Below, piece after piece: positions 35,892-39,774 of a DNA stretch of 39,774 nt. The notes beneath the pieces are model-generated. The model made no database searches. It was not told where the DNA came from and saw nothing but the letters and a program-made list of their open reading frames with translations. The first letter of the stretch is position 1; every line of letters starts with the position of its first letter. Position numbers and translations under genes: made by a program. Where the stretch lies: NCBI GenBank assembly GCA_029821745.1, contig JALGSS010000006.1:1-39774 (forward strand). Direction: 5' to 3'. This DNA is from Candidatus Zipacnadia bacterium (GTDB lineage: Bacteria > Armatimonadota > Zipacnadia > Zipacnadales > JABUFB01).

Positions 35892-37691
35892 ATGGACCCA
35901 CGCGGCACGTTGGCGCTCACGCCCTTTGTGGCGGCCGTTTGCCTGGTCGCACTGCCCGCAGTCGCGTTCTGTCAGGCCGAGTCCCCCGGTGAGGATCTGG
36001 TCCTTGCCGACTTCGAGGACGTGGCCGGGTGGACAGGCCTGGTGCTCGATTCGGACACGGTGAAGGTGGGCGCGAGCTCGGGTAAATGGAGCTCGATGGA
36101 TCAGAGCCCCCAGGCCGGCACGCAGGAAATCCCTCACGACTGGAGCGCCTATACCGGGCTGTCCCTGTGGCTCTACAACGAGAAGCGCCTCGAGGACGCC
36201 GCTTTTATGCTGATCATCACCTCGGAGCGCGAGGAGAGCGAAGGGCCGGACTACTACTCCCTGCGGTTCGACTTGAAGCGATGGGAAGGCTGGGAGCATT
36301 TCGTCGTTCCCTTTGAAGAGATGGGTGCCGCCCGGCAGCCGATGGGCTGGGGCCAGATCGATCGGATCGAGTTCACTGCCTCGGGTTGGGGCAACACCCC
36401 GCACCCCGAGGCAGTTGTGTATCTGGACGATCTCCGACTGCTGAAAATGGGCAAGGTCGATGGCCCCCGGCTGACGGATGAGGAGTTCTTCGGGGCGATG
36501 AACCTGGAGTACCCGGGCCTGGGCGAGGTGAAAGCCGCCGTCGAGGCCGGCGATTGGACTGCAGCGAAGGCGGCGTGGCTGGAGCACCTCAAGTCTCGGG
36601 AGACGCCGCGATGGTTCATCGACTGGCGAGACAAGCCCGAGCGCACGCCCGCACCGCAGACGGGTGGGTCGGAAGGCTGGGACTACTACGCGTACCAGCC
36701 GGCCGTCGACTGGACCGGGTGGAAGCACTTCTCGCTCAAGAAGTCGGACTTCAACGCCTCGCGGAAACCCATCGGCTGGCACTGGATCGATTACATCAGC
36801 ATCAACGCCGGCGGCTGGGGCCAGACGCCCGACCCGGAGACGATCCTCTACTTCGACGACATCAAGCTCGTCGGACCCGACAAGACCGTGGTCCTTGGCG
36901 ACTTCGAGGACGGCCCGGGGGACTGGCGTGGGCTCGAACTGGCCGAGGACGTGGCAAAGGAAGGCACGCGGTCGGGCAAGTGGCACAACATGCACGTGGC
37001 CAGCAGTCTGCGGTACGCGACCGAGATAACGGACTGGTCTGAGTTCGACGCCCTGGAATTCTGGTGCTACTCGCCCAAGGCCACGGGGGCGAAGTTCACC
37101 ATGGTGCTGGACAGCGATCAGCCGGCCCAGCAGAAAGCCGATGAGATCGTGAGGCATCTGATTCAGGGTCACGACTTCGGGCCCGACATCGACTGGTCGG
37201 CCGACCCCAACAACTACCGCGAGTGGACCTACGCCATCAACCGCTTCTTCCACTGGCGCACGCTGTGCGAGGCCTACTGGAGCAGCGGCGATGAAGTGTA
37301 TGCGAAGGAGTTCAGCGACCAGGTCGTGGACTGGGTGAAGAAGAACCCGGTGCCGCTATTCTCGTCAGGCAACGGCTCGTACACCTGGCGGACCATCGAG
37401 TGCGGAATCCGCACGCCGGATGTCGCGACGACGATGACCAAGAGCATGGTGGAGCACGCGCGGCACCTGATGATGTGGCCGATGAGCGGCAACTGGCTCA
37501 CGATGGAGAGCAATGGGCTGGGAACGCTGGGCATCTTGTTGCCTGAGTTCAGCGAGGCGCAGACGTGGTGGGACACCGCCGCTGGACAACCAGGTTTACC
37601 CGGACGGGGCGCAGATCGAACTGACCACGGGCTACCATCAGGTGTCCCTCAACAACTTCCTGGGGCTGGCGCGCACGGCGAAGCTCAATGA
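35892..37691 (+). CDS. Heparinase II/III-family protein, N-terminal part with carbohydrate-binding modules (gene frameshifted)
   Basis: ATG 35892 follows AGGAGGAG at 35879-35886 and opens a signal peptide (AVCLVALPAVAFCQA). Residues about 34-185 form a CBM11-like/galactose-binding sandwich (LADFED ... YLDDLRLL). Then a helical region begins (AAKAAWLEHLKSR), is interrupted at about 255-410 by a second module whose halves are in swapped order (C-half first at nt 36670-36890, N-half at 36891-37120), and resumes with QQKADEIVRHLI, HWRTLCEAYW and MESNGLGTLGILLPEF, the start of the alginate-lyase/heparinase toroid. Similarity ends at about SEAQTWWDTA (37560-37580). The tail to 37691 reads out of frame. 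The true continuation is the next entry. Confidence 0.8.
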   Translation: MDPRGTLALTPFVAAVCLVALPAVAFCQAESPGEDLVLADFEDVAGWTGLVLDSDTVKVGASSGKWSSMDQSPQAGTQEIPHDWSAYTGLSLWLYNEKRLEDAAFMLIITSEREESEGPDYYSLRFDLKRWEGWEHFVVPFEEMGAARQPMGWGQIDRIEFTASGWGNTPHPEAVVYLDDLRLLKMGKVDGPRLTDEEFFGAMNLEYPGLGEVKAAVEAGDWTAAKAAWLEHLKSRETPRWFIDWRDKPERTPAPQTGGSEGWDYYAYQPAVDWTGWKHFSLKKSDFNASRKPIGWHWIDYISINAGGWGQTPDPETILYFDDIKLVGPDKTVVLGDFEDGPGDWRGLELAEDVAKEGTRSGKWHNMHVASSLRYATEITDWSEFDALEFWCYSPKATGAKFTMVLDSDQPAQQKADEIVRHLIQGHDFGPDIDWSADPNNYREWTYAINRFFHWRTLCEAYWSSGDEVYAKEFSDQVVDWVKKNPVPLFSSGNGSYTWRTIECGIRTPDVATTMTKSMVEHARHLMMWPMSGNWLTMESNGLGTLGILLPEFSEAQTWWDTAAGQPGLPGRGADRTDHGLPSGVPQQLPGAGAHGEAQ

Positions 37692-38856
37692 GATCGCGCT
37701 GCCCGAGGACTACTATACCAAGCTGCGCCGGATGTTCGAGTACAACCTGTACGTGCAGATGCCCGACGGTCGCACGCCGGGCCTCAACGATGGGGGCATG
37801 ACCGGCATCACGGGCAGCATGCGGACTGCCTTCGAGCTGTACGAGGACCCGGTGTTCGAGTGGGCGGCAAGCCGGGGAGCGCACGGCACGCCGCCGGATC
37901 ACACGAGCCACTTCTTCCCGTACGCCGGGCAGATGGTGATGCGGTCCGGGTGGGAGCCCGACGCGCGGTACCTGCTGATGGACGCCGGACCCTTCGGGTA
38001 CGGTCACCAGCACGAGGACAATCTGAGCATCGTCGTCAACGCACTGGGCAAGGTGCACATCGTCGACCCGGGCAACTACGCCTATGATTCGAGCCCGTGG
38101 CGCCGCTACACCATCGACACCCCGGCGCATAACACGATCATGGTGGATGGCCAGGGGCAGCGACGCCGAGGGCTGCCCCGGAGCGAGTATGTGGTGGAGG
38201 AGCCGGTCGCGACCAACGTCTGGCTGAGTTGCGACAAGCTCGACTACGGTGCGGGTCAGTATGAGACCGGCTACGGGCCGAAGCGCGAGATACAGGTGAC
38301 GCACCGCCGGCAGATCGTGTTCGTCAAGCCCGACTACTGGCTCGTCATCGACACGCTTAGCGGCGAGGGCGAGCATCTGTATGAGTCGATCTTCCACTTC
38401 GACGCGGATGAAGCCACGATCGACGAGGACGGACTCACCGTCCGCACCATTGACCCCTCACCCAACTGTCTGATCGCTGTCGCGCCGCGTGACGGGCTGA
38501 ACGCGCGGATCGTCAAGGGCCAGACGGAGCCCACAGTCCAGGGATTCGTGGCGGCTCAGAAGTGGCGGCCAAGCTGGAAGGACCCGCAGGCTGAGGCGCC
38601 CGAACACGGCAAGCGCGCGGTGCCCACGGCCATCTTCTCACTGACGGCAAAGGCCCCTGTTCGGCTGGTCAGTGTGATACTCCCGTACCCGAAGGATGAG
38701 ACGCCTCAGGTGTCGGTGGAGGATATCACCGGCGAGGACGCGAAGGTTCGGGTGCGCGTCACGCTGCCGGATGGCACGGTAGATGAGATCGTCGTCGACG
38801 ACGGCGCGAGCGTCACCCGCAATGGTGAGCCCTGGGCCGAGTTGGGGCGCGAGTAA
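37582..38856 (+). CDS. Heparinase II/III-family protein, C-terminal part (continuation of frameshifted gene)
   Basis: This frame is open from 37513, but its first 20 or so residues are non-homologous; family-like sequence starts at LDNQVYPDGAQ (37582). It contains the YHQVSLNNF segment with a Tyr-His pair, then GYGHQHEDNLSI with the His expected in the heparinase II/III beta-sandwich domain, followed by HNTIMVDG. The last part is an antiparallel sandwich ending at TAA 38854-38856. These enzymes cleave uronate-containing polysaccharides by beta-elimination. The upstream part is in another frame; about eight residues seem to be missing between WWDTA and LDNQ, as judged from typical family spacing. 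No start codon or ribosome-binding site supports separate translation. An unbroken ancestor would be a secreted lyase of about 990 residues. Confidence 0.8.
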   Translation: MDNQVYPDGAQIELTTGYHQVSLNNFLGLARTAKLNEIALPEDYYTKLRRMFEYNLYVQMPDGRTPGLNDGGMTGITGSMRTAFELYEDPVFEWAASRGAHGTPPDHTSHFFPYAGQMVMRSGWEPDARYLLMDAGPFGYGHQHEDNLSIVVNALGKVHIVDPGNYAYDSSPWRRYTIDTPAHNTIMVDGQGQRRRGLPRSEYVVEEPVATNVWLSCDKLDYGAGQYETGYGPKREIQVTHRRQIVFVKPDYWLVIDTLSGEGEHLYESIFHFDADEATIDEDGLTVRTIDPSPNCLIAVAPRDGLNARIVKGQTEPTVQGFVAAQKWRPSWKDPQAEAPEHGKRAVPTAIFSLTAKAPVRLVSVILPYPKDETPQVSVEDITGEDAKVRVRVTLPDGTVDEIVVDDGASVTRNGEPWAELGRE

Positions 38857-38890: not shown

Positions 38891-38899
38891 GAGGTGATC
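38891..38899 (+). promoter_or_regulatory. Extended Shine-Dalgarno for the TTG-start gene
   Basis: GAGGTGATC matches the anti-Shine-Dalgarno end of 16S rRNA over nine bases and lies three bases before TTG 38903. It is the best ribosome-binding site seen for an otherwise weak start codon. Confidence 0.65.
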
Positions 38900-38902
38900 G
38901 CT

Positions 38903-39774
38903 TTGTCGAGAATCGCCATGGTCGTGATGCTATTGGCGGTCTGCATCTGGGCACCAGCTCAGGAACTTGAGCGCGAAGGGCCTTTCGAGAAGCTGGTGCT
39001 GCTTCGCGGGGCGGATGCGGACTCCTGGTCCGAGGCGGAAGCCACCATGACCCCGGATACCACCCGCGTGAAAACCGCCGACGCCTCCCACCACTTCCAC
39101 ATCGACGTAGACTTCAACGCCGGCGAGAAGGCCTACCCGATTGGTTGGCCGCGCACGAACGTCGCGCTGAAGCAGCCCTGGCAGCAGGACTGGACCGGCT
39201 TCGACTTCCTACGGTTCTGGGTCTACACGAAGACATCCCGCGACGCCCTGCCGTCGGCGCCCCTGGGTATCGTGCTGCACACGCCGACCCGGGCGAGCAG
39301 CCATCACGACACAGTGCCCGGCCTGAAGAAGGACGAGTGGGTCGAGGTGCTCATCCCTCTGTCTAAGATCGCGAACCACGATCAGGTGACGCTGTTTCAG
39401 TTCTTCATCGCCGAGTCGAACTACCGCGACCATGACGTGGTGGACTTCCACATTGACGATATCTGTCTTCTGCGCTATGCCGAGCCGCACGTGATTGACG
39501 CGACGATGCGCCCGCCGGTGGTCTTCTCGGACGCGGCTGCATTCGTGATGCGACTGCAGCTCTCGGGAATCGCGGAGGGCGAGCACGTGAAGGCGACCGT
39601 TTCACTTGAGCAGGACGGGCAAACGCTGACCACCGTGGCCCGCGATGTGACGCGCGGGACCAACGATATCGTGGTCAACCTGTCGGGAAGCGATCTGCCG
39701 GTCGGCGACTACACGCTGAAAGCCAGTCTAGCCGGCGGCGATTCGCGGGACTTCGAGCTGAAGGTCATCGAGAG
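38903..39774 (+). CDS. Secreted carbohydrate-binding protein, 3' end outside window
   Basis: The frame is open from TTG 38903 to the window edge (290 codons), with an extended Shine-Dalgarno GAGGTGATC at 38891-38899. The N-terminus is a signal peptide (SRIAMVVMLLAVCIWAPAQ). The next 170 residues resemble a CBM-type beta-sandwich: FEKLVLLRG, then WTGFDFLRFWVY, EVLIPLSKIA and a closing DFHIDDICLL, the same closing pattern as the heparinase modules. From about 200 a second, Ig-like sandwich begins (ATVSLEQDGQTL, then LPVGDYTLKASL). No catalytic domain is reached. Position after the heparinase gene with only a 46-base gap suggests a shared role in polysaccharide use. An ATG at 38918 is a weaker alternative start. 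Confidence 0.7.
   Translation, partial: MSRIAMVVMLLAVCIWAPAQELEREGPFEKLVLLRGADADSWSEAEATMTPDTTRVKTADASHHFHIDVDFNAGEKAYPIGWPRTNVALKQPWQQDWTGFDFLRFWVYTKTSRDALPSAPLGIVLHTPTRASSHHDTVPGLKKDEWVEVLIPLSKIANHDQVTLFQFFIAESNYRDHDVVDFHIDDICLLRYAEPHVIDATMRPPVVFSDAAAFVMRLQLSGIAEGEHVKATVSLEQDGQTLTTVARDVTRGTNDIVVNLSGSDLPVGDYTLKASLAGGDSRDFELKVIE

Follow-up and report, generated by a model that had tools for sequence, protein, structure and literature searches.

A heparinase-like gene from Candidatus Zipacnadia bacterium carries two related carbohydrate-binding modules (CBMs), and in the second of these the C-terminal and N-terminal halves have exchanged places. With a probability of about 0.85, the second module is a genuine circularly permuted CBM11-like β-sandwich, nested in a loop of the host enzyme, that would have been captured a single time and would act as a second substrate-binding module. 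The gene lies within a 39,774-nucleotide stretch of contig JALGSS010000006.1, called the window here.

Architecture of the window gene

The heparinase-like gene occupies positions 35892-38856 of the forward strand and is split over two reading frames. The segments below include the first module (CBM1), the permuted module or insert, and the host segments H1 and H2 that flank the insert. The homologues L012 and L013 provide the reference for the two deletions.

35892-37691, + strand: first frame of the interrupted heparinase-like gene, with the N-terminus, CBM1, H1, the permuted module and most of Hepar_II_III_N
36003-36227, + strand: N-half of CBM1 in canonical position (N-half profile match, P0001 38-112)
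36234-36449, + strand: C-half of CBM1 in canonical position (C-half profile match, P0001 115-185)
36459-36638, + strand: H1, segment 1 of the heparinase domain (EFFGAMNLEYPGL...WFIDWRDKP), aligned in insert-free paralogues
36666-36875, + strand: C-half of the permuted module, placed first (half-profile order, rotation scan)
36882-37115, + strand: N-half of the permuted module, placed second (half-profile order, rotation scan)
37116-37580, + strand: H2 and the first part of Hepar_II_III_N (PF16889, P0001 409-563)
37411/37412, + strand: 54 bp absent relative to L012 and L013, in frame, 18 residues (DNA and protein alignment)
37580/37581, + strand: about 20 bp absent relative to L012 and L013, causing a frameshift (DNA alignment)
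37513-38856, + strand: second reading frame, with the remaining Hepar_II_III_N and Hepar_II_III_C (PF07940; Pfam)

Both domains of the catalytic region exceed their Pfam cut-offs, which places the gene in the heparinase II/III superfamily. Hepar_II_III_N (cut-off 22) scores 135.1 and 62.5 bits in the two frames and Hepar_II_III_C (cut-off 24) scores 105.6 bits. Two stretches of P0001 match Hepar_II_III_N, the better being 409-563. The HepC equivalog models give far too little for a narrower assignment, with 78 and 80.8 bits for NF045573 and 48.9 and 34.9 bits for NF045572 in the two frames, against NCBIfam cut-offs of 700 or 600 bits (NF045573/NF045572). The frameshift divides these scores, and even when summed they fall far under the cut-offs. 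CBM1 (36003-36449) has no Pfam match above cut-off, and H1 matches solved heparinase III sequences weakly.

Both deletions fall in the heparinase N-domain, downstream of the permuted module, and leave the module untouched. Third-position GC is 0.87 before and 0.85 after the frameshift region, and 447 codons of the second frame are free of stops. The similar composition and the open frame indicate that the damage is recent or reflects loss during assembly. The window gene is thus either a recent pseudogene or a victim of local assembly errors.

The order of the halves was established with one profile for each half of CBM1, both derived from the first modules of 11 proteins that include the window's. 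The N-half profile matches P0001 at 38-112 (106 bits) and at 336-408 (57.4 bits, E 5.7e-20), and the C-half profile matches at 115-185 (125 bits) and at 260-327 (82.4 bits, E 9.7e-28). CBM1 therefore runs from N-half to C-half, and the insert from C-half to N-half. BLASTP of CBM1 against the insert as found gives two crossed segments (45% over 69 and 37% over 78 residues), which are replaced by a single segment (40% over 150 residues, E 5e-35) once the insert is rotated. In a rotation scan, the global alignment score to CBM1 rises from 94 without rotation to 286 at the best cut, which falls at GPDKTVVL. For 300 shuffled inserts, with every third cut tried, the best-rotation scores average 3 and peak at 43. 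Swapped segments that merge into one contiguous alignment upon rotation are the sequence signature of a circular permutation.

A preliminary description of this DNA had reported the reversed order of the halves and had placed the module at 36650-37125, inside the heparinase domain. The order is confirmed by the crossed profile matches and the rotation scan. The nesting is confirmed by the Hepar_II_III_N match that follows the insert and by insert-free paralogues, which align across the gap. The module itself stands, with its limits refined to those of the two half-modules listed above. Two similar short stretches at its edges, PERTPAP and PAQQKADE, had also drawn attention; they are not conserved in homologues and look like chance. 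A target-site duplication at the insert edges was rejected on the same grounds.

Homologues and descent of the insert

A scan of the genome collection yields five loci, three of which match along the insert: L012 (Candidatus Anammoximicrobium sp.), L013 (Planctomycetaceae) and L014 (Kiritimatiellota). Seven further proteins from a set of 100 relatives and the window genome align in one piece across it. MAFFT alignments place the same half order at the same site in homologues from Armatimonadota, Planctomycetota and Kiritimatiellota. Judged by this distribution over three phyla, the permuted module looks like an old and conserved rearrangement.

Searches with an H1-insert-H2 profile scored a limited number of candidates per genome, and the resulting genome counts are lower bounds. 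In the window's phylum, at least 10 of 291 genomes, counting the window's own, have full-length matches, and at least 20 have any match at E 1e-20; the rest of these 20 genomes have partial matches only, to ordinary, tandem or host segments. Full-length matches also occur in at least 1 of 392 genomes sampled across the phylum of L012, this being L012's own, and in at least 2 of 199 of its family. In the class of L014, at least 18 of 197 genomes have matches, one of which is truncated at a contig end.

Removal of 11 second copies (L068, L069, L071, L072, L074, L075, L076 and L098-L101) from 45 profiled rows leaves 34 distinct insert-bearing genes; the insert copies G743:C7, G701:C371 and G703:C799 were left out of this gene set. 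The order H1, C-half, N-half is found in 31 of the 34 genes and the order N-half, C-half in none. Three genes could not be scored, either because the frame is split by a TGA (L117) or because a diverged C-half falls below 8 bits (L121 and L122). In the 34 genes, neither the gap from H1 to the C-half nor that from the N-half to H2 holds a spare half-module that scores.

Among distinct reading frames, 23 have the architecture N-C-H1-C-N-H2, 21 have N-C-H1-H2 and none has N-C-H1-N-C-H2. The preliminary description had suggested looking in homologues for the uninserted heparinase and for the unpermuted module. The former exists, the empty site being visible in 16 insert-free proteins where 7-19 residues separate the H1 and H2 profile matches, and no unpermuted module stands at the insertion site in the tallied architectures. 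At the insert-free junction, H1 often ends like WRxRP and H2 starts like ADxxL, with a short loop between them. Intermediate architectures such as H1-N-C-N-C-H2 were not found among the homologues, and the permutation point and host site are uniform throughout the aligned inserts.

Proteins L111-L122, from the class of L014, form a diverged subfamily with frames mostly of about 1260-1395 residues. Their insert is permuted in the same way and its halves score weakly, and the N-half of their CBM1 is barely recognisable.

When the inserts are rotated, the nearest modules of 24 out of 33 are the ordinary N-terminal CBMs of another lyase family (for example L064/L093). Tandem modules are nearest for 6, CBM1 of insert-bearing proteins for 2, and CBMs of insert-free heparinases for 1. 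Origin by duplication of the protein's own CBM1 is less likely on these counts. In a tree of modules, 22 inserts share one branch (91/95) with 9 modules of the other lyase family and one tandem module, and 11 diverged inserts lie apart. The CBM1 modules cluster with the CBMs of heparinases that lack the insert, among which the CBM1 of L117 is tallied although L117 bears an insert. L117 and L052, the latter with a shortened insert, were omitted from the 33-row alignment (A3) and from the insert rows of the module tree. In a smaller tree the window insert stands weakly with canonical CBMs (53/78), so that a change from canonical donor to permuted insert is an assumption here.

The permuted module might have been gained repeatedly, or moved among heparinase paralogues by recombination, and either process would explain its patchy distribution. 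Forcing all insert-bearing hosts into one clade, with the insert removed, is rejected (log-likelihood 262 lower, p-AU 2.6e-7). The host tree, made by a quick method without rows having under 200 residues after H2 (the window's gene excepted), needs 5 state changes, at least 4 of them forced by starred branches. In addition, the insert tree separates the four inserts of host group A1 from one another (p-AU 0.125 when they are constrained to one group). However, a tree constrained to keep all 33 inserts in one clade is not rejected and improves slightly on the unconstrained one (p-AU 0.55). The insert tree also reproduces the split between host groups A and B (support 96/95), and the permutation point and host site are constant throughout. 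Repeated gain or exchange is therefore judged unlikely.

Inserts that can be held as one clade, in hosts that cannot, suggest one old permutation followed by repeated loss. On the simplest reading, the module was permuted and inserted a single time, descended with its host and was lost in several lineages, although the trees are unrooted and a gain is indistinguishable from losses without a root. A canonical module like the N-terminal ones of another heparinase/alginate-lyase-like family would have been captured once in permuted form, perhaps from a tandem arrangement, and before the host lineages diverged.

The reading frames L066 (G012:C20), L067 (G007:C31) and L015 contain this CBM11-like module in tandem, in two to four copies. 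Such arrays are a possible source of a phase-shifted, permuted unit. A tandem N-C-N-C arrangement can also mimic C-N order by a shifted register, and G012:C20 and G007:C31 were set apart by their architecture. The heparinase copy L052 (G094:C297) has a permuted insert with a shortened N-half and perhaps represents a stage of loss.

Predicted fold of the insert

AlphaFold2 models the window insert alone (170 residues, 33-row alignment A3) with eleven strands, a pLDDT of 89.9 and a pTM of 0.84. These values mean that the two halves are predicted to form one domain. A circular permutant is expected to make one fold, and by this prediction the insert does so, which answers the proposal in the preliminary description to model the permuted segment. 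In a model of the L012 protein (pLDDT 78.6), the strand list of the insert is that of CBM1 rotated. The chain opening falls between strands that are consecutive in CBM1 (75-81 and 92-98), and a short link (VGPDKTVVLGDF) connects the ordinary C- and N-ends within the insert. With an opening between adjacent strands and a short link, the new ends leave from consecutive strands, an arrangement that suits insertion into a loop.

The best match to the L012 model is heparinase III 5jmf (Z 33.3, 579 residues, 4.2 Å). Foldseek returns no PDB match to the insert with an E-value of 0.001 or lower, and a solved structure of it was not found. Compared in sequence order, the insert is structurally closest to concanavalin-A-type lectins (Z 7.3, 131 residues, 3.3 Å). 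This suggests that the modelled insert resembles a jelly-roll, and a Z of 7.3 says no more. Concanavalin A is itself a circularly permuted legume lectin, yet its identity to the insert is 4-5% and the Z value lies in the common jelly-roll range. Comparison with the solved CBM11 structure 1v0a gives E 0.16 and TM 0.24, in a search that is hampered by the permuted order.

These models bear on the proposal that the insert consists of two degenerate half-modules, left by deletions in a former tandem insertion and forming no working domain. Tandem arrays of the module do exist, and permutation through duplication followed by trimming would traverse such a state. A remnant of this kind is nevertheless quite improbable. 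The predicted fold is single and of high confidence, 33 genes keep both halves in alignment, and there are no leftover outer halves. Moreover, the join, counted as residues between profile ends, is 1-5 residues long in nearly all inserts (9 in L120 and 10 in L052), compared with 6-41 in tandem arrays. Of the options offered in the preliminary description, a broken remnant is thus disfavoured by halves that are predicted to fold together and are kept, and the half-module idea may still describe how the permutation arose. The option of a circularly permuted module is upheld by the conserved order, the confident single-domain prediction and the lack of a canonical-order copy.

The order N1-C1-H1-C2-N2 would also permit a domain swap, in which each half of CBM1 pairs with the complementary half of the insert and the two modules interlock. 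This arrangement is very improbable, because the insert on its own is predicted to fold with high confidence and because L077 (G261) has an insert and no CBM1 that could be found. Finally, an assembly or binning error, to which a genome of 1168 contigs with 88% completeness and 6.6% contamination and a gene with a 54-bp gap and a frameshift might seem prone, is scarcely credible as the cause of the swapped order and can be excluded as a third option of the preliminary description, since independent assemblies from three phyla have the same order at the same site and the insert occurs in one single-contig genome and one of about 40 contigs (G261 and G002).

Related modules and possible role

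The insert as it stands has no match in Pfam, CBM_11 included. After rotation it scores 17.6 bits against CBM_11 (E 0.004) over residues 27-109, which span the restored join at residue 79. CBM1 of the window scores 12.8 bits. Neither value reaches the family 11 gathering score of 27 bits (PF03425). Canonical relatives are CBM11/CIA30-like β-sandwiches (PF03425, PF08547), represented by the two-module L015 at 50.1 bits, which is above the 27-bit cut-off, and by the N-terminal part of L064 at 23.5 bits. They differ in having canonical order, whereas the insert is permuted and the window sequences lie under the curated cut-off.

The catalytic region is like that of heparinase III (5jmd/5jmf BT4657, 4mmh HepC and 4fnv), with a profile E of 4e-78 to 5jmd. 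In contrast, the H1 region of the solved chains runs almost directly into the toroid, with neither CBM1 nor insert; profile matches in 5jmd end at 57 and resume at 75.

Natural permutation between CBM families, permuted carbohydrate-active enzymes and an engineered permuted CBM are already known. CBM36 and CBM60 were reportedly described by Montanier et al. in 2010 as natural CBM families related by circular permutation. These appear to be two separate families, whereas the permuted copy described here is nested in a catalytic domain beside a canonical copy. The periplasmic α-amylase MalS, whose domains are permuted as C-A-B-A-C, is presented as a natural circular permutant among carbohydrate-active enzymes (PMC10223318). 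There the enzyme's own C-domain is split around the catalytic domain, and the N-terminal CBM69 is not called permuted in the portion of that account consulted (PMC10223318). An engineered circular permutant of the starch-binding CBM21 is described as still folded and still able to bind (PMC3511584). It is laboratory-made, whereas the heparinase insert is natural. A search of open-licence literature found neither a CBM nested in a heparinase nor a permuted CBM11, which is weak evidence of absence.

The permuted module occupies a loop of a heparinase-III-like lyase, at the point where H1, the first helical segment, passes into the remaining toroid (H2). There, tethered at both ends, it would be a further substrate-binding module in addition to the ordinary N-terminal CBM and would hold an acidic polysaccharide against the catalytic domain. 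Because both of its ends are tied into the enzyme, its orientation would be fixed, unlike that of the N-terminal CBM1. Polysaccharide binding by the insert is putative and is extrapolated from the binding expected of its CBM_11-group relatives; CBM11 binds β-glucans. In L077, 112 residues precede H1 in the frame examined, and the presence there of an insert without a detected CBM1 fits an insert with a role of its own. As a tentative and somewhat doubtful extension, the permuted module may serve a distinct heparinase subfamily as an integral exosite that arose once and was kept at one place beside the catalytic domain in three phyla, because permutation gives the ligand face an orientation that is unattainable in unpermuted form.

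Canonical modules, permuted modules, and insert-bearing and insert-free hosts, several of them in one genome, make up a natural comparison set. The set allows one to ask how circular permutation and domain insertion combine, whether the orientation of a binding face is what preserves a permutation, and how frequently nested domains vanish cleanly. It also exposes an annotation gap: Pfam is blind to the permuted module as it stands, so surveys of CBMs can miss such modules.

The gene that follows the heparinase in the window (38894-39774) opens with another β-sandwich-like domain (DWTGFDFLRFWVYTKT ... FHIDDICLLRYA). It has a weak Ig-like match and is truncated by the contig end.
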